This document shows positions 14,739 to 26,114 of a DNA stretch of 53,526 nt, in pieces (positions within the stretch are counted from its first letter, which is position 1; each line of letters opens with the position of its first letter). The DNA comes from Alphaproteobacteria bacterium (GTDB lineage: Bacteria > Pseudomonadota > Alphaproteobacteria > UBA9219 > RGZA01). Both the position numbers and the translations under genes were made by a program. The DNA lies in NCBI GenBank assembly GCA_028278105.1, contig JANQEX010000030.1, forward strand, positions 1-53,526. Reading direction: 5' to 3'. The notes under the pieces are model-generated. The model ran no database searches and was not told the origin of the DNA. It was given only the letters and a program-made list of their open reading frames with translations.

Positions 14739-15107
14739 ATGAAAGACAAGACAAGTTTCACGCGGCGCAGGCAGCGCATTCGCGCCCGCCTGAAGCGGGC
14801 CGGGGAAACCGGCAAGGGCCGGCTGCGCCTTTCGGTGTTCCGCTCCGCGAAGCACATTTCGGTTCAGGTCATCGACGACGGGAAGGGCGTCACGATTGCC
14901 GCGGCCTCCAGCCAGGACAAGGACCTGCGCGGAAAGCTGAAAAGCGGCGCCAGCCGCGCGGCGGCGCAGGCGGTCGGCCGGCTTGCGGCGGAACGCGCCG
15001 TGAAGGCCGGCGTGAAGCAGGTGGTGTTCGACCGGGGCGGTTACCTGTATCACGGGCGCGTCAAGGCTTTGGCCGACGGCGTCCGCGAAGGTGGATTGGA
15101 ATTTTAG
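14739..15107 (+). CDS. rplR: 50S ribosomal protein L18
   Basis: [39 protein letters not shown]...[20 protein letters not shown]. Confidence 0.97.
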
Positions 15108-15205
15108 GTTCGGAGGTTCGCAGGTTCGAAGGTTCAGGGGTTCAGAGGTTCGTGACGTCATTAATTTTGAACCTCCGAACCTTCGAACCTGCGAACCTCA
15201 AAACA
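15108..15205. repeat. Word-array hairpin, family E, between rplR and rpsE
   Basis: Perfect 23-bp inverted repeat gaggttcgcaggttcgaaggttc (15113..15135) / gaaccttcgaacctgcgaacctc (15177..15199). Confidence 0.92.
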
Positions 15206-15234
15206 GGTTAACAGGAAGAAGACAGGAAACAGAC

Positions 15235-15822
15235 ATGGCACGTCCCCGCAAACAAGGCGAAGAAGACAACGCCGACCGCGCGCATGACGAGCCCCAGTTC
15301 ATCGAGAAGCTGGTGGCCGTCAACCGCGTCGCCAAGGTGGTGAAAGGCGGCAAGCGCTTCGGCTTCGCCGCGCTCATCGTCATCGGCGACCAGAAGGGCA
15401 AGGTGGGCTTCGGCTCCGGCAAGGCGCGCGAGGTGCCCGACGCCGTGCGCAAGGCCACCGACGCCGCGCGCCGCCGCATGATCCGCATCCCCTTGCGCGA
15501 GGGGCGCACCTTGCATCACGATGTTTTCGGCCATTTCGGCCCCGGCAAGGTGGTGCTGCGCGCCGCGCCCCCCGGCACAGGCATCATCGCCGGCGGTCCG
15601 ATGCGCGCGGTGTTCGAAGCGCTGGGCGTGCAGGACGTGATTTCCAAATCGGTCGGCACGTCCAACCCGCACAACATGATCCGCGCCACGCTGGCGGCCC
15701 TGACCGCCACCATGAGCCCGCGCCAGGTGGCCGCCCGCCGCGGCAAGAAGGTCAGCGACGTCATCGGCAAGCAGAAGGAATATGGCGGGCCGGTGAAGAA
15801 GGAAGGCGAGAAGGAGGAGTAA
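15235..15822 (+). CDS. rpsE: 30S ribosomal protein S5
   Basis: [51 protein letters not shown]. Confidence 0.98.
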
Positions 15823-15823
15823 G

Positions 15824-15907
15824 GTTTAGAGGTTCGGGGGTTCAGAGGTTCATAGGTTCAAGGTGAAATGCTTACGAACCTCTGAACCTTCGAACCTTTG
15901 AACCTCT
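15824..15907. repeat. Word-array hairpin, family E, between rpsE and rplO (where rpmD is normally found)
   Basis: aggttcgggggttcagaggttcataggttcaagg ... ttacgaacctctgaaccttcgaacctttgaacctc. Confidence 0.88.
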
Positions 15908-15922
15908 CCAAAGGAGAAAAAA

Positions 15923-16692: not shown

Positions 16693-18036
16693 ATGGCCTC
16701 TCCCGCAGAACAGCTTGCCGCAAGCGTCAACCTCTCCGCCTTTTCCAAGGCCACCGACCTGAAAAAGCGCCTGTGGTTCACCCTGGTGGCGCTCGTCATC
16801 TACCGGGTGGGCACCTATATCCCCATGCCGGGCATCGATCCCGTCGTGCTGGAGGAGTTCTTCCGCCAGCAGTCGCGCGGGGTGCTGGGCATGGTCGATA
16901 TCTTCGCGGGCGGCGCGCTCAGCCGCATGACCATCTTCGCGCTGTCCATCATGCCCTACATCTCGGCCTCGATCATCGTGCAGCTCATGGCCGCCGTGGT
17001 GCCGAAGCTGGAGGCGCTGAAAAAGGAGGGCGAGGCGGGCCGTGCCAAGCTTAACCAGTACACCCGCTACCTGACCGTCGCCCTTGCGCTGGTGCAGTCC
17101 TTCGCCCTGTCCACGGGGCTGGAACACATGATGGGTCCCTCCGGTCCCGCCGTGCCGGAGCCGGGCCTGATTTTCCGTTTTACCACGACCGTGACGCTGA
17201 CGGCGGGAACCATGTTTCTTGTCTGGCTGGGCGAGCAGATCACCAGCCGCGGCGTGGGCAACGGCACGTCGCTGATTATCTTCTCCTCCATCGTCGCGGG
17301 GGTGCCCAGCAGCATCGCGGGGGCCCTGGAGCTGTCGCGCACCGGCGCGCTGTCGGCGGGCTCCATCATCTTTCTGACGGCCATCATCATGGTGGTGATC
17401 GCCTGCGTGGTGTTCGTGGAACGCGCGCAGCGCCGCATCCTGGTGCAGTATCCCAAGCGCCAGGTCGGCAACAAGATGTTCGGCGGCGAGGCCACGCATC
17501 TGCCCCTCAAGCTGAACTCGGCCGGAGTGATCCCGCCCATCTTCGCAAGCTCGCTGCTGCTCCTGCCGCTGACGCTGGTGGGCTTTTCGGGGGCCGACGC
17601 CACCCAGGACTGGGCGCAGTGGATTTCCACCCATCTGGGCCATGGCCGCCCGCTGTTCATGGTTTTGTATGCGGCGCTCATCATCTTTTTCAGCTTTTTC
17701 TACACGGCGGTGGTGTTCAACCCGAAGGACACGGCCGACAACCTGAAAAAATACGGCGGCTTCATTCCCGGCATCCGCCCCGGCAACAACACCGCCGATT
17801 ATCTGGATTACATCCTCACCCGTCTGACGGTGGTGGGCGCCGTCTACATGGCGCTGGTCTGCCTGCTGCCGGAATTCCTGACGGCGGAATTCGCCATACC
17901 CTTCTATTTCGGCGGCACCAGCCTTCTGATCGTCGTCTCGGTGACGATGGATACGGTGGCGCGCATCCAGGCCCAGCTCATCGCGCATCAGTATGAGGGG
18001 CTCATCAAGAAGGCCAATCTGACCGGAAAGAAATAG
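16693..18036 (+). CDS. secY: protein translocase subunit SecY
   Basis: AEQLAASVNLSAFSKATDLKKRLWFTLVALVIYRVGTYIPMPGID; multiple TM segments. Confidence 0.98.
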   Translation: MASPAEQLAASVNLSAFSKATDLKKRLWFTLVALVIYRVGTYIPMPGIDPVVLEEFFRQQSRGVLGMVDIFAGGALSRMTIFALSIMPYISASIIVQLMAAVVPKLEALKKEGEAGRAKLNQYTRYLTVALALVQSFALSTGLEHMMGPSGPAVPEPGLIFRFTTTVTLTAGTMFLVWLGEQITSRGVGNGTSLIIFSSIVAGVPSSIAGALELSRTGALSAGSIIFLTAIIMVVIACVVFVERAQRRILVQYPKRQVGNKMFGGEATHLPLKLNSAGVIPPIFASSLLLLPLTLVGFSGADATQDWAQWISTHLGHGRPLFMVLYAALIIFFSFFYTAVVFNPKDTADNLKKYGGFIPGIRPGNNTADYLDYILTRLTVVGAVYMALVCLLPEFLTAEFAIPFYFGGTSLLIVVSVTMDTVARIQAQLIAHQYEGLIKKANLTGKK

Positions 18037-18136
18037 GGTGTTGGGGGATTAGAGGATATTGGGGTGTTCGGGTATTGGGGTATTAGGGTATTGATCCGCA
18101 CTTTCCACCCCAATATCCTCTAATCCCCCAGCACCC
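18036..18136. repeat. Word-array hairpin, family G (GGGTATTR / GGGGATTAGAGG) between secY and adk
   Basis: Perfect 25-bp inverted repeat tgggggattagaggatattggggtg (18042..18066) / caccccaatatcctctaatccccca (18106..18130); about 31 bp with one mismatch. Confidence 0.95.
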
Positions 18137-18153
18137 GATACCCCGGCATCGGC

Positions 18154-18822
18154 ATGACAGCACAGGCAGCAAACCCCATTATTCTTCTCGGCCCGCCGGG
18201 CGCCGGCAAGGGCACGCAGGCGCGCCTTCTGGAAGAAAAGCACGGGCTGATTCAGCTTTCCACGGGCGACCTGCTCCGCGCCGCGGTGAAGGAGGGCTCG
18301 GCCCTGGGGCGCGAGGCCAAAACCTATATGGAAGCCGGAAAGCTGGCGCCCGACGACCTGATGATTCGCATGATCGCCGACGGGTTGCAAAAGCCGGAAG
18401 CCCGGCGCGGTTTTATTCTGGACGGTTTCCCCCGCACGGTGGCCCAGGCTGCGGCGCTGGACGCCATGCTGGAGCAAAAGGGCTTGTCGCTCGGCCATGT
18501 AATCGTGATGGCGGTGGATGAAGAGGCCCTCATCACGCGCATCACCGGCCGCATGACCTGCGCCAAATGCGGCGAAGGCTATCACGACAGCTTCAAGCCG
18601 ACCGCAAAGCCGGGGGTGTGTGACAAATGTGGCGGAACATCCTTTATCCGCCGTCCCGACGACAACGCCGAAACCATGAAAACGCGGCTTGCGGCCTATC
18701 ATGCCCAAACCGCGCCCATTATTCCCTATTATGAAAAGCGCGGCATATTAAGGAGAGTGGACGGCATGGCCGGAGTGGACGCGGTCGCCTTGCAGATCGA
18801 GAAGGTTTTGGGAGCGGTTTAA
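18154..18822 (+). CDS. adk: adenylate kinase (Cys4 zinc-lid type)
   Basis: IILLGPPGAGKGTQARLLEEK, LDGFPRTVAQA, CAKCGEGYHDSF...CDKCGG lid. Confidence 0.97.
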   Translation: MTAQAANPIILLGPPGAGKGTQARLLEEKHGLIQLSTGDLLRAAVKEGSALGREAKTYMEAGKLAPDDLMIRMIADGLQKPEARRGFILDGFPRTVAQAAALDAMLEQKGLSLGHVIVMAVDEEALITRITGRMTCAKCGEGYHDSFKPTAKPGVCDKCGGTSFIRRPDDNAETMKTRLAAYHAQTAPIIPYYEKRGILRRVDGMAGVDAVALQIEKVLGAV

Positions 18823-18954
18823 TTGTAGGGTCTCAAGGGTCGATAGGGCCGGCAATCCCCGGCAAAGCTGTTCCAGGTTAACCGCCCGGCAACCATTTCG
18901 TGGCAGAAGATAGGATGCTTCGCATCCCGCCTTCGTTTCCAGGTCGTTTCCCCC

Positions 18955-19383
18955 GTGTCCCTTGATCTTCCCAGCCTTCGCCTGTTGGTCGCCGACGATC
19001 ATTTTCTGATCCGGCAATTCGTGCGCCGCAGCCTGCTTGATGCCGGCTTCAAGCATGTCGACATGGCCAATGACGGAAACGAGGCCATCGATTTCATCAA
19101 CAGCAGCTTCCAGACAAACCTGCTTTATGACGCGCTGTTTCTCGACTGGAACATGCCCACGCTCTCCGGCATCGACGTGCTGGCCTATGTGCGCAGCAAG
19201 CCCATCTACCGCAGTTCGGCGGTGGTGATGTTCACCGCCGAATCCGAAAAGGCGAATATCATGAAGGCGATCAAGATGGGCGCCACCTCCTACATCCTGA
19301 AACCCATCTCGCCCGCCGAATTCTCGCGCAAGATCCGCGAGATCACGGAATGGCTGGAAGAGCGGCGGGTCGGGAAGATCTAG
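18955..19383 (+). CDS. CheY-like single-domain response regulator
   Basis: LRLLVADDHFLIRQFVRR, LFLDWNMPTLSGIDVL, MFTAESEKANIMKAIKMGATSYILKPI; GTG start. Confidence 0.9.
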   Translation: MSLDLPSLRLLVADDHFLIRQFVRRSLLDAGFKHVDMANDGNEAIDFINSSFQTNLLYDALFLDWNMPTLSGIDVLAYVRSKPIYRSSAVVMFTAESEKANIMKAIKMGATSYILKPISPAEFSRKIREITEWLEERRVGKI

Positions 19384-19391
19384 ACAGTTTC

Positions 19392-19907
19392 ATGAGCCGG
19401 AATCTTACCCTTTCCCTTGGCGACCAACTGGCCCGCGATATTGCGCAGGCCGTGGCGGACTCTTTCGGCATGACCTTCGGCATCAAGGTCGTCCCCGGCC
19501 GCTATTCCGTTGCCGAGGGGCCGGTGCGTCTGGGCGGGGATGTCTCCGGCCTGGTCGGCCTGACGCAGGACCGGCTGGAAGGCACGCTGACCGTGTGTTT
19601 TTCCCTGGACACCATGCAGAAAATCGTTCCCCGCCTGATTGGCGGGGATATCAAGGTCACGCCCGACATCGCCGCGGATTCGGTTGGCGAAATCACCAAT
19701 ATGGTCTTCGGCCAGATCAAGACCCGGCTGAACGAGCGCGGCCACAATATCCGCCTCAGCCTGCCCAGCGTGGTGCGCGGCCCCAGCCATTTCATCAACC
19801 ACCTGCACGAAGGCCGCTACATGCTGATGCCTTTTGATGTGGATGGCAGCGCCTTCCAGGTCCATCTGGCGGTTCACCGCGATGGCGGGGAAAACGGCGG
19901 CGCCTGA
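19392..19907 (+). CDS. CheX/CheC-like phosphatase family protein
   Basis: SVGEITNMVFGQIKTRLNERGHNIRLSLPSVVRG; CheX-type E..N motif. Confidence 0.75.
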   Translation: MSRNLTLSLGDQLARDIAQAVADSFGMTFGIKVVPGRYSVAEGPVRLGGDVSGLVGLTQDRLEGTLTVCFSLDTMQKIVPRLIGGDIKVTPDIAADSVGEITNMVFGQIKTRLNERGHNIRLSLPSVVRGPSHFINHLHEGRYMLMPFDVDGSAFQVHLAVHRDGGENGGA

Positions 19908-19918
19908 CGGGTCCTTCC

Positions 19919-21604
19919 ATGCCGCCATTCCGCAAGCCCTCCCCCGCCATCCGCCAGATCGAACTGATCCATACCAGTCTCGGCGGCCTGTTGCTGATGT
20001 GCATGGTGCTGACGGCCGGGCTGCTGTTGCCGGTCTTCGGGTTCAACGGCCTCAGCTCGCCCCTCGTGGCGGCCTGCATCATTGTGACGGTGGCCGTGGG
20101 CGCCGGCGCGCTCTATGCCCAAAATCTCGGCGCGCACCGCGCGTTGCTGGACCAGGCCCGCCTGACCGAGGTGCTGATCAACAGCCTGGGCCAGGGCTTT
20201 TTGAGCTTTGACGCGAAGGGCGCATGCGGGCCGGTCTATTCGCAGGCCTGCCATGCGCTGCTTTGCGTCGACGACGTCGCGGACCGGCCCGTCACCGAGG
20301 TGCTGCGCGTGACGGGCTCTCCGGCGGCCGAGTTCGTGGAATGGCTGGACATTCTTTTCATGCAAGGCCATGCGTTGAGCTTCGAGGATGCCGTGCGGTT
20401 TCTGCCCGACCGCGCCGCGCGCGACGACGCCCGGACCGTGGAACTCACCTACCGGCCGGTGCGCGACAAGGAAGGCCTGTTGACCCGCGTGGTGCTGATC
20501 GCAACGGACCGCACCGAGGAAATGGAGGCGCAAAAGCGCGCCGACCAGGAACGGCAATTCGCCGCCATGGTCTGCGCCATCTTCGCCGAGCGCCCGGCCT
20601 TTGCCGTAACCATGAAGCAGATTTCGACCCTGCTGGAGCGCCTGACCCGCTTTGATGAAGGCGTCCTTGCGCCCGATTTCTTCCGCGAGGTCCACACGGC
20701 CAAGGGCGCCGCCTTGCACTTCAAGATGGATGCGCTGGCCACGGCCCTGCACGGCCTGGAACAGGAATTGAAAACCGGGAAAAGCCGTCCGCTTGATGAA
20801 GCCCGTTCCTGTATCGACAGCAATCGCGCCCTGGTGCAGCGCGAATTCGGCCGCATCCAGAACACGTTGCGCGATATCGCCGGCGCCGACGCCGGCGCCG
20901 AATCCCGCGGCCTGATCGAGGTGGACGAGGAATCCATCTATCGCTTCGCGCGCCTTCTGAAGCAGCACAATGTTTCGCCGGACCTGATCTATGCCTATCA
21001 GGCCGGGGTGTTGTCGGTGCCGCTGTTCGGTCTTTTGAAAACGCTGGACCGCCACATGCTGCCGCTGGCGGAAAGACTGGAAAAGCGCGTACGGCCCATT
21101 TCCTTTACCGGCGAGGATGTGCGCCTGCCCGCCCGCCCGCTGCAACCCCTCTTGCTGGCGCTCACCCATGTGGTGCGCAACGTCGTCGATCACGGCATCG
21201 AGCCGCCGCTCAGCCGCATGGCCAAGGGCAAGGACCCGCAAGGCAGCGTGGTTGTCGATGTGCGTTGCGGCAAAAGCGACAGTTCAAGCGAGGACTGGCT
21301 GATCATCACCATCAGCGACGACGGCGCCGGCATCGATCCGAACAAGGTGCGCGAACGCCTGTCCAAGCTTGATCCCGAAGGCGACTGGCGCTTCGACGAC
21401 GATACCACGGTCATCCAGCAGCTTTTGACCCGTGGTTTTTCCACCAAGGAGGAAACCTCCCTTCTCTCCGGCCGCGGGGCGGGCCTTGCCGCCGTTTACC
21501 AGCAGGTGCTGAATCTGGGCGGCCGCGCCCGCCTGGTTTCCGAGATGCATAAAGGCACCCGGTTGACCGTTGAATTACCGGCGCGGCTGAAAGCCTGCGA
21601 ATAA
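19919..21604 (+). CDS. Membrane HPt/CheA-like histidine kinase (2 TM, PAS-like, HPt, HATPase; no CheW-like domain seen)
   Basis: Two N-terminal TM helices; FFREVHTAKGAALHFKM (HPt); HVVRNVVDHGIEPP, DDGAGIDPNKVRERL, GRGAGLAAVYQQV, KGTRLTVELPARL (CheA-type ATPase boxes); ends just after the ATPase. Confidence 0.8.
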   Translation: MPPFRKPSPAIRQIELIHTSLGGLLLMCMVLTAGLLLPVFGFNGLSSPLVAACIIVTVAVGAGALYAQNLGAHRALLDQARLTEVLINSLGQGFLSFDAKGACGPVYSQACHALLCVDDVADRPVTEVLRVTGSPAAEFVEWLDILFMQGHALSFEDAVRFLPDRAARDDARTVELTYRPVRDKEGLLTRVVLIATDRTEEMEAQKRADQERQFAAMVCAIFAERPAFAVTMKQISTLLERLTRFDEGVLAPDFFREVHTAKGAALHFKMDALATALHGLEQELKTGKSRPLDEARSCIDSNRALVQREFGRIQNTLRDIAGADAGAESRGLIEVDEESIYRFARLLKQHNVSPDLIYAYQAGVLSVPLFGLLKTLDRHMLPLAERLEKRVRPISFTGEDVRLPARPLQPLLLALTHVVRNVVDHGIEPPLSRMAKGKDPQGSVVVDVRCGKSDSSSEDWLIITISDDGAGIDPNKVRERLSKLDPEGDWRFDDDTTVIQQLLTRGFSTKEETSLLSGRGAGLAAVYQQVLNLGGRARLVSEMHKGTRLTVELPARLKACE

Positions 21605-21857: not shown

Positions 21858-22238
21858 GTGGCACGTATCGCAGGCGTCAACATTCCCACGGGCAAGCCGG
21901 TCTGGATCGCGTTGCGCTACATCTATGGCGTGGGGCCGAAGCGCGCGCGCGCCATTTGCGACGCGCTGAAAATCCCGGACGCCAAGCGCGTCAACCAGCT
22001 TACCGATGGCGAGATTTTGAAAATCCGCGAATTCATCGACCAGAATTACAAGGTGGAAGGCGACCTGCGCCGCGACATCGCCATGAACATCAAGCGCCTG
22101 ATGGATCTCGGCTGCTATCGGGGCCTGCGCCACCGCAAGGGCCTGCCGGTGCGCGGCCAGCGCACGCATACCAACGCGCGCACCCGCAAGGGCCCCGCCA
22201 AGCCCATCGCCGGCAAGAAAATGGCGACCAGGAAGTAA
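21858..22238 (+). CDS. rpsM: 30S ribosomal protein S13
   Basis: [26 protein letters not shown]...[20 protein letters not shown] start. Confidence 0.98.
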
Positions 22239-22903: not shown

Positions 22904-23926
22904 ATGTCGCTGATGTTGCAGAAAAACTGGAAACAGCTCATTCAGGCCAACAAGCGGATCAACACCGGCGACGACGCCGCGCGCGGCGCCACGCTCATGG
23001 CCGAGCCGCTGGAGCGCGGCTTTGGCACCACGCTCGGCAACGCGCTGCGCCGCGTGCTTTTGTCGTCCCTGCAGGGCGCGGCCGTCACCGCCATCCAGAT
23101 CGACGGCGTCTTGCATGAATTCTCTTCCATTCCCGGCGTGCGGGAAGACGTCACCGACATCGTGCTGAACGTGAAGGCCCTGGCGCTGCGCATGCACAGC
23201 GAAGGCCCGCGCCGGATGCGTCTTGCGGCCGAAGGTCCCGGCGAGGTGAAGGCCGGCGCCATCCAGACCGGCGCCGACATCGACATCCTCAACCCCGATC
23301 TGGTCCTGTGCACGCTGGATGCCGGCGCGCATCTGTCCATGGAGTTCACGGTGGAAACCGGCAAGGGCTATGTGCCGGCGTCCCAGAACCGCAAGGAAGA
23401 CAGTCCCATCGGCCTTATTCCGATTGACGCCCTGTATTCGCCGGTGCGCAAGGTGTCTTTCCGCGTCGAAAACAGCCGCGTCGGCCAGGTGACCGACTAC
23501 GACAAGCTGTCGCTGCAGGTCGAGACCAACGGCACCATCCCGCCGGAGGACGCCGTGGCCATCGCCGCGCGCATCCTGCAAGACCAGTTGCAACTCTTCA
23601 TCAATTTCGAGGAGCCGAAGGCGCATATCGCGGAATCGCCGCGCGACGAGTTCCCCTTCAACAAGAACCTGCTGCGCCGCGTGGACGAACTGGAGCTTTC
23701 GGTGCGCTCGGCCAACTGCCTCAAGAACGACAACATCATCTATATCGGCGACCTGGTGCAGAAAACGGAAGCCGAGATGCTCCGCACCCCCAATTTCGGC
23801 CGCAAGAGCCTCAACGAGATCAAGGAAGTCCTGGCGCAAATGGGCCTGACCCTTGGGATGGAAGTCTCCGGCTGGCCGCCGGAAAATATCGACGAGCTTT
23901 TGAAAAAGATGGAGGAACCGTTTTAA
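22904..23926 (+). CDS. rpoA: DNA-directed RNA polymerase subunit alpha
   Basis: [14 protein letters not shown]...[31 protein letters not shown]...[14 protein letters not shown]. Confidence 0.98.
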
Positions 23927-23998
23927 GGTTCGAAGGCACGAAGGTGCGCAGGTTCGCAGTTTCTTCGAACCTCCGAACCTTCGAACCTCCGAACCTTC
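23926..23998. repeat. Word-array hairpin, family E, between rpoA and rplQ
   Basis: aaggttcgaaggcacgaaggtgcgcaggttcgcag ... cttcgaacctccgaaccttcgaacctccgaacctt. Confidence 0.85.
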
Positions 23999-24012
23999 CC
24001 GGTTAGATTCAA

Positions 24013-24811: not shown

Positions 24812-25132
24812 ATGGCCTGGCTTTATCTTCTTTGCGGCGGGTTTTTCGAGATCGGCTGGGTGGGCCTGTTGAAGGTCCATGGCCTTCATGTGTCGCGGCC
24901 GTTTCTTTCGGGGTTGACGATCCTGCTGATGCTGGTTTCGCCCCTTTTCCTTAATCTTGCGCTTAAAACCCTTCCGATAAACATCGGCTATGCGGCTTTC
25001 GTGGGCATCAATGCCGTGATGGTCCTGATCGGAAGCTTTGTCATTTTCCGTGAAACGCTCAGCCTGCCGCAGTTTCTGTGCGTGGCGATGATCGTGGGCG
25101 GCGTGGTGGGCCTGAGGCTTCTGGAAGGCTGA
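24812..25132 (+). CDS. SMR-family small multidrug/guanidinium-type transporter
   Basis: MAWLYLLCGGFFEIGWVGLLK...INIGYAAFVGINAVMVLIGSFVIFRE; four TM segments. Confidence 0.87.
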   Translation: MAWLYLLCGGFFEIGWVGLLKVHGLHVSRPFLSGLTILLMLVSPLFLNLALKTLPINIGYAAFVGINAVMVLIGSFVIFRETLSLPQFLCVAMIVGGVVGLRLLEG

Positions 25133-25334: not shown

Positions 25335-25658
25335 ATGGCAGAGATCATCCGTTTTCCAGAATCAGCCCGAAAAGGGCCGACGGCCCAGGAACTGGCCGAG
25401 AAGGTACGGGGCTTACTGGAAAGGGATTCCGGGAATATGAAATTCGAGCATCCTCATTTTCAAGAGCGTCTTGAAAAAAGAAACGTGAGCATGAGGCAAG
25501 TGCTGGATGTGATTAAAAATGGAGAACCGGTCGGGGGGCCGAAGCTGGATCAATGGGGAGACTGGAGAATAAAGCTTTACAGAAAGACTGCGGGGAGGAA
25601 AGTGCAGGTGGTGGTCGCTGTTAAGGAAAATCACTTTGACCTGGTCACGGTGATTTAG
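25335..25658 (+). CDS. DUF4258-like protein, putative toxin of a TA pair
   Basis: FEHPHFQERLEKRNVSMRQVLDVIKNGEPVGGP...GDWRIKLYRKTAGRKVQVVVAVKENHFDLVTVI. Confidence 0.7.
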   Translation: MAEIIRFPESARKGPTAQELAEKVRGLLERDSGNMKFEHPHFQERLEKRNVSMRQVLDVIKNGEPVGGPKLDQWGDWRIKLYRKTAGRKVQVVVAVKENHFDLVTVI

Positions 25659-25667
25659 GAGGGAGCC

Positions 25668-26114
25668 ATGACAGCAAACGAAAAAGCATATCGCTACAGG
25701 GAATGCGGGCTGGACAATGTCTACCTGCAAAATGGCTTCGAGATTGTTGGCAACAAGGTGTCCATCAAGAACATCGAGGACCTTCATGATGCCATCGGCC
25801 GTTTTCTTGTGGAACATAAAAAGGATTTAACCGGAAAAGAGCTGCGCTTTTTGCGGCATGAGATGCTCATGTCGCAAGCGACCCTGGCCTATTTTCTGGG
25901 CGTGGGATGGCAGTCGGTAAATCGATGGGAAAACGGCAGAACCAGGTTCCCCAAAGCTGCGGAAGCCTTAATGCGCCTTCTCTATAGGGAGCATCGGAAT
26001 GAGGGAAGCGAGATCAAGAAGTCTTTGAAAACAATCGCGGACCTGGAAGATCAGTTGTCACGGAAGCTGACAATGAGCAAAACCCCGAAAGGATGGCAAC
26101 CTTTGGCGGCTTAG
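25668..26114 (+). CDS. MqsA-like XRE/HTH antitoxin-type regulator
   Basis: YRECGLDNVYLQNGFE; HTH RFLRHEMLMSQATLAYFLGVGWQSVNRWENGR. Confidence 0.75.
   Translation: MTANEKAYRYRECGLDNVYLQNGFEIVGNKVSIKNIEDLHDAIGRFLVEHKKDLTGKELRFLRHEMLMSQATLAYFLGVGWQSVNRWENGRTRFPKAAEALMRLLYREHRNEGSEIKKSLKTIADLEDQLSRKLTMSKTPKGWQPLAA

Follow-up and report, generated by a model that had tools for sequence, protein, structure and literature searches.

A P5-less CheA-like membrane kinase encoded with a CheY-type receiver and a CheX-type phosphatase: a probable array-independent two-component system in an order of Alphaproteobacteria

Introduction

The closest described relatives of the proteins treated in this work are the chemotaxis kinase CheA, the CheX phosphatases, the orthodox sensor histidine kinases and the Cle proteins. 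A survey of thousands of CheAs has revealed that every one of them has the domains P1, P3, P4 and P5 (PMC10782961). CheX phosphatases have been described in Thermotoga, Borrelia and other bacteria, and orthodox sensor kinases follow the architecture TM-PAS-HisKA-HATPase. The Cle proteins are c-di-GMP-binding CheY-like regulators of Caulobacter, and their signature is a tandem [YF]xGP[DE][RK]R motif (PMC5677366).

Three adjacent genes that combine parts of these systems are found in a stretch of alphaproteobacterial DNA of 53,526 nucleotides, which is called the window throughout this text. They code for a membrane kinase, a single-domain receiver and a predicted phosphatase. The kinase shares with CheA an HPt phospho-acceptor, the CheA-type P4 ATPase and a CheY-type receiver as partner, but it lacks P5/CheW, P2 and a recognisable P3, and it carries its own TM segments and PAS-like input. 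Because P5 and a recognisable P3 are missing, it is not a CheA as defined by the survey (PMC10782961). With the orthodox sensor kinases it has in common the TM region, the PAS-like input, the C-terminal ATPase and a clustered receiver; however, no HisKA/DHp was found in it, the phospho-histidine is located in an HPt and the ATPase is of the CheA type. The trio CheX resembles the described CheX phosphatases in family profile, structure matches and the E-N catalytic pair. It differs from them in standing beside a kinase that is not CheA, and the flagellar locus of one relative (G010) has CheZ instead. The receiver is, like the Cle proteins, an alphaproteobacterial CheY-like protein with a basic C-terminal tail, but it has no arginine-rich motif and its phosphorylation site is intact. 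The original prediction had left room for the trio being an already characterised system; no description of the trio or of its P5-less kinase was found in the open-licence papers searched.

Layout and conservation of the trio

The three genes occupy positions 18955-21604 and lie closely spaced on the same strand between adk and rpsM, as had been predicted (Table 1), with intergenic gaps of only 8 and 11 bp. They are not chance reading frames, since they are conserved in the order to which the window belongs, with kinase identities of 37-65%. The domain assignments made originally for the kinase, the receiver and CheX agree with Pfam profiles and with matches to solved structures, and all the catalytic residues of the phospho-cycle that were checked are conserved.

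Table 1. Coordinates of the trio, of the domains of its kinase and of the neighbouring features in the window.
Feature	Position	Strand	Remarks
adk, upstream neighbour (context, outside the system)	18154..18822	+	Pfam ADK E 2e-54
Conserved upstream element, ~28 bp	18878..18905	+	Consensus TTAACCNTNCRKCAANNWTTTTRTGNCA; window copy TTAACCGCCCGGCAACCATTTCGTGGCA
cheY-type single-domain receiver	18955..19383	+	142 aa; GTG start; basic C-terminal tail; phospho-acceptor D64 at 19144-19146
cheX-type CheY-P phosphatase (predicted)	19392..19907	+	171 aa; E100xxN103 motif at 19689-19700
Membrane PAS-HPt-CheA-ATPase kinase without P5	19919..21604	+	561 aa
Kinase: two predicted TM helices, loop of ~7 residues	19967..20122	+	Residues ~17-68; hydropathy; AF2 helices 9-40 and 48-89
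Kinase: PAS-like domain	20162..20518	+	Residues ~82-200; Pfam PAS_4 E 0.0016 (just under cut-off); alignment; AF2
Kinase: HPt/P1-like bundle	20531..20881	+	Residues ~205-321; Pfam Hpt E 8e-5 (just under cut-off); H259 at 20693-20695
Kinase: CheA-type P4 ATPase	21014..21586	+	Residues ~366-556; N421, D467-D473 box, S508/G518-G522 boxes
rpsM, downstream neighbour (context, outside the system)	21858..22238	+	ORF; syntenic in relatives

The order is probably Micavibrionales, a name to be used with care as NCBI taxonomy places Micavibrio under Bdellovibrionota. The RpoA of the window genome is 78% identical to that of Azospirillum. Conservation in other genomes, by which the prediction could be judged, is high: a CheX orthologue is present in all 21 good genomes of the order and in 26 of the 28 that are at least 80% complete, and the kinase query matched nearly all the order genomes searched, with a partial match in G022 and none in G030 (69% complete). 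Twenty kinase loci were fetched. The trio is complete in 19 of them, the contig of the twentieth beginning within the kinase, and in these 19 loci, where the whole region is on the contig, the three genes are found together and on the same strand.

Several other features of the window were recorded. Intergenic arrays with a period of 8 bp, in which AGGTTCGN is followed by CGAACCTN, are located at 15098-15214, 15814-15913 and 23926-24004, between ribosomal-protein genes and before rplQ; their arms could pair as long hairpins. An array of like build, of the GGGGTATT type, was seen by eye between secY and adk (18036-18153). Positions 24812-25132 code for a SugE-like transporter of the small multidrug-resistance (SMR) family, scoring under the equivalog cut-off. 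A pair of small genes follows at 25335-26114: the first has no NCBIfam match and the second matches a subfamily of MqsA-family antitoxins below the cut-off (E 5e-15), so the pair is a possible toxin-antitoxin system.

Anatomy of the kinase

The C-terminal part of the kinase is a CheA-type ATPase by several measures: it matches HATPase_c with an E of 1.8e-15 (Pfam), residues 352-557 match CheA P3P4 and P4 structures with an E of 6e-26 by sequence, and in the AF2 model the P4 fold matches CheA P4 (1i58) with a Foldseek E of 9e-13 and a TMt of 0.80. The mean pLDDT of this model is 79.5 and its pTM 0.43, so the packing and arrangement of the domains in it are uncertain. The Hpt matches of the kinase paralogues exceed the Pfam cut-off that the kinase itself falls just short of. 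Residues H259, K262, N421, D467/D468/G469/G471/D473, G518 and G520/G522 are invariant both in the order and in the distant homologues.

The membrane anchor and the PAS-like input that had been proposed for the kinase also stand, the former as two TM helices indicated by hydropathy and AF2 and the latter with a weak Pfam match that is consistent with the AF2 model. No extracytoplasmic sensor domain is present, the loop between the TM helices being so short. In the PAS region C103 and H151 are invariant among 20 orthologues of the order and C111 is nearly so; speculatively, these cysteines and this histidine could make the domain a sensor of redox state, metals or cofactors.

At the C-terminus the kinase ends after the ATPase, as predicted. 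A CheW-like domain in it would have spoken against the original reading; the Pfam search found none at E<=1, nor any H-kinase_dim (P3) at the same threshold. Only the short helices 337-349 and 354-365 precede P4 in the AF2 model, and the P3 dimerisation hairpin is apparently absent or very degenerate. Of the 561 residues of the kinase, only 7 follow the last P4 strand, which runs to residue 554; as this leaves no room for P5, the domain is considered absent.

The receiver and CheX

The receiver matches Pfam Response_reg with an E of 5.8e-23 and the structures of E. coli CheY with an E of about 5e-21. It has the DD/D/T/K phosphorylation residues, and D14/D15, D64, T94 and K116 are invariant in an alignment of 17 orthologues; the CheY-like positions T94/Y113/K116 are likewise kept. 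The expectation that its output does not involve a DNA-binding domain is in agreement with its length of 142 aa and with the lack of any other Pfam domain over the cut-off. A Cle-type c-di-GMP receiver was considered and rejected, the tandem signature being absent from the receiver tail in the alignment.

CheX matches PF13690 over the cut-off (E 6e-18) and the solved CheX structures 1squ, 1xko and 3hm4, the last of which is the best match (E 5e-19). Its score lies below the cut-off of the NCBI CheX equivalog, which is a Thermotogales model. Both E100 and N103 of the ExxN motif are invariant in 17 orthologues, and in the AF2 model they are located on helix 91-115.

Relation to chemotaxis and to the flagellar motor

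It had been stated that MCP, CheW and CheB are missing. This is correct for the trio locus but not for the genome (G000): other contigs of it carry MCPs, a full CheA, a stand-alone CheW match, and CheB-like and CheY genes, the CheB-like identity being read purely from sequence and gene order. The CheA from these contigs contains HPt, H-kinase_dim (E 7.7e-15), ATPase, CheW (E 1e-33) and receiver domains. The genome has in them a canonical chemotaxis system separate from the trio, which favours an array-independent trio. Alternatively, the trio could be an accessory arm of chemotaxis: its receiver would bind FliM or be a competitor of the motor CheY, and the kinase would serve as a second flagellar input with CheX as its phosphatase. 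FliM is indeed present in 27 of the 28 order genomes. The CheY-binding motif LSQxEIDxLL is preserved at the N-terminus of FliM, also in G009, where neither MCP nor CheW was matched and no CheY match lies on the fliM contig; the conserved T94/Y113/K116 of the trio receiver point in the same direction.

Against such an arm, two relatives (G006 and G010) already own another CheY in the fliM locus. In a small tree of receivers this motor-locus CheY groups with E. coli CheY (support 93/99), the CheYs of the che operons are placed elsewhere, and the trio receivers form a clade of their own (99/98), so that the trio receiver does not group with the motor-switching CheY; some branches of this tree are long and the fine placement is unsure. 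The G010 motor locus contains a CheY-CheZ pair (L150:9206-10261), where CheZ apparently serves the motor CheY. Besides, no linkage of the trio to flagellar or che genes was seen in the loci examined. We consider an accessory role in chemotaxis rather unlikely.

G009 is of interest here as it has FliM together with the CheY and CheX of the trio. That these two genes are retained where MCP and CheW matches are lacking suggests that a chemoreceptor array is not needed for the trio to be kept. Nevertheless, its kinase frame appears to be split after the TM segment (L051:7727-9488), which makes G009 weak evidence either way. The break may be an assembly error or a real loss, and in the latter case this would be a lineage with no intact kinase.

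Kinases with a free HPt can serve several receivers. Related to this, the kinase might act as an HPt-type phosphodonor for other regulators, with the trio receiver and CheX draining phosphate from it and CheX speeding up the sink. However, when four genomes from the families f2 and f3 are compared, the identity of the trio receivers is 79-83%, versus 67-76% for the CheYs of the che operons. Such strong conservation points to a receiver that binds a specific partner and is more than a sink, which makes this alternative very unlikely.

Genomic context and the upstream element

The trio of the window adjoins both adk and rpsM, as do the trios of 8 of the 20 other loci, and several more have one of the two. 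Neither gene is beside the trio in L041, L044, L048, L050 and L051, and the trio is still one block in them; the context of L041 is limited by the upstream end of its contig, so the trio has been relocated in at least 4 genomes. In L032 (genus g2), adk is separated from the trio by a gene on the opposite strand that codes for a transporter-like protein of 418 aa, and in L033 and L034 the distance between adk and the trio is about as large. From neighbours that vary in this way (one, both, none or an opposite-strand gene), it follows that the insertion probably dates back to the ancestor of the order, with later disturbance in places.

An element conserved among the loci starts 77 bp before the cheY start in the window, and 77-198 bp before the start codon across the loci. 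It is located upstream of the trio at 18 of 20 loci, the window included, and is missing at L050 and L051; at L041, L044 and L048 it has been kept with no adk or rpsM beside the trio. In a leave-one-out matrix scan it scored above all 500 mononucleotide shuffles in 17 of the 19 loci tested, and the eighteenth copy is that at L041:66. No second copy above the threshold was found elsewhere in the 20 fetched loci, and the scan of the window gave 1 match where 0.04 were expected. As the matrix was seeded by a consensus read from the same sequences, these scans describe the element and do not constitute its independent discovery. A cleaner test, though with a pattern of the same origin, is the genome-wide search of six genomes with 1 mismatch allowed: 10 matches were obtained, 5 at the trio and 5 scattered, all three exact matches were at the trio, and the reversed control pattern gave 0 matches.

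The element is probably the promoter or operator of the trio. A flagellar/CtrA regulon shared with other genes was rejected as its explanation: TTAACC occurs within it, yet in full the element is essentially restricted to the trio. Sigma-28 sites and full CtrA sites were looked for and not found, and the loose sigma-54-like matches are scattered and non-canonical. The promoter and terminator scan gave results near chance, and none of the Rfam families matched the window.

According to the original prediction, the position between adk and rpsM would tie the trio to the expression of the ribosomal and RNAP-alpha genes. Read as growth control, this would mean that the cassette is co-expressed with their operon and links signalling to growth rate. 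What speaks for it is the place of the trio, on the same strand, between the two genes of the window, which 8 of the 20 other loci share. The tie was not borne out, given the opposite-strand gene of L032, the relocated trios and the private upstream element; retention of this element while the trio moves as a block argues against coupling to ribosomal expression. It has been reported that gene order created by insertions in the ribosomal gene cluster of other bacteria is often not kept (PMC8046335), which fits a passive insertion. Ribosomal co-expression was rejected as the likely function, and growth control through it seems very unlikely.

Paralogous clusters and distant relatives

Within the order, a CheY-CheX-FIST-kinase cluster is found in this order of genes at L138:6766-10775, and L139 contains the FIST and kinase portion of such a cluster. 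Other paralogous clusters of the order consist of CheY-CheX-kinase (L140) and of CheY, a CheX-like gene and a large sensor kinase (L141). Outside the order, the only version of the trio among the matches listed for the alphaproteobacteria sampled is a distant, FIST-linked one, the CheY-CheX-FIST-kinase cluster of G241 (L180:5788-9801). The FIST-associated clusters share with the trio homologous receiver, CheX and kinase genes, the gene order and the P5-less HPt-P4 core; those of L138 and L180 differ from it in having a soluble FIST gene and no TM segment, and they are sporadic whereas the trio is order-wide. The NO sensor NosP belongs to the FIST domain class. The paralogous CheY-CheX-(FIST)-kinase clusters suggest that inputs are swappable, and the FIST-linked ones are apparently undescribed in the open-licence literature searched.

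In 381 other alphaproteobacteria there were two weak CheX matches among those listed. CheX genes were also matched in Gammaproteobacteria (E ~1e-20 to 1e-25), but flanks of about 1.5 kb around them contain neither a kinase nor a receiver of the trio type. Bdellovibrionota-type MAGs (L056-L062, L064-L066 and L096) contain, among the matches listed, PAS/HAMP-HPt-CheA-ATPase kinases with no P5. These are homologous to the trio kinase over PAS-HPt-P4 with 26-31% identity, but mostly have larger N-terminal sensor regions, and no CheX was detected beside them in the fetched flanks. One more distant kinase match, among those listed, comes from a Fibrobacteria MAG.

The loss of P5, P2 and a recognisable P3 could also be taken as the sign of a decaying chemotaxis operon, i.e. 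a CheA minus P5 with a leftover CheY and CheX, but the active-site residues and gene order maintained across the order and the homologous P5-less kinases in Bdellovibrionota MAGs and FIST-linked paralogues leave this reading next to no credit. Anti-phage defence was rejected as a function, as there is no PADLOC match.

Proposed system

Domains, active-site residues, gene order, conservation, the upstream element and the separateness of the receiver from the other CheYs are features read from the sequences. Taking them together, we consider it likely that the trio, specific to this order and assembled from parts of the CheA type, is a two-component system that works independently of arrays and forms a single transcription unit under its own upstream element. 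In this proposal, the membrane kinase would sense an intracellular or membrane-proximal cue by means of its TM/PAS region and would autophosphorylate H259 in its own HPt using the CheA-type ATPase. The phosphoryl group would then pass from H259 to D64 of the neighbouring receiver; we infer this direction of transfer, and the partnership of the three proteins is deduced from the adjacency of their genes. The phosphorylated receiver would diffuse and, since it has no output domain, would act through protein-protein contact, until the neighbouring CheX strips off the phosphoryl group via its ExxN motif, which would set the lifetime of the signal. The three genes would be transcribed as one unit, independently of chemoreceptor arrays and of adk and rpsM.

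As for the output, it may be guessed that the system switches between motile and attached states in these small-genomed, flagellated bacteria. This guess is based on the near-universal FliM and on published data for a relative named Micavibrio: in Micavibrio aeruginosavorus, flagellar, chemotaxis and two-component genes are up-regulated in the attack phase, and the genome contains at least 41 two-component genes, the text of the genome paper making no mention of CheX (PMC3189940). A bolder version, in which a CheA-derived kinase class with its receiver and CheX would be the order-defining switch between swimming and attachment to prey or surfaces, with a similar role in Bdellovibrionota, is improbable at present.

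The family of the trio kinase keeps P1 and P4 without P5 and apparently without P3, and as such it is a link at the sequence level between chemotaxis and the ordinary sensor kinases. Its near-universal retention, together with a private control element, makes the trio a concrete candidate for a core regulator of lifestyle in small-genomed, flagellated relatives.
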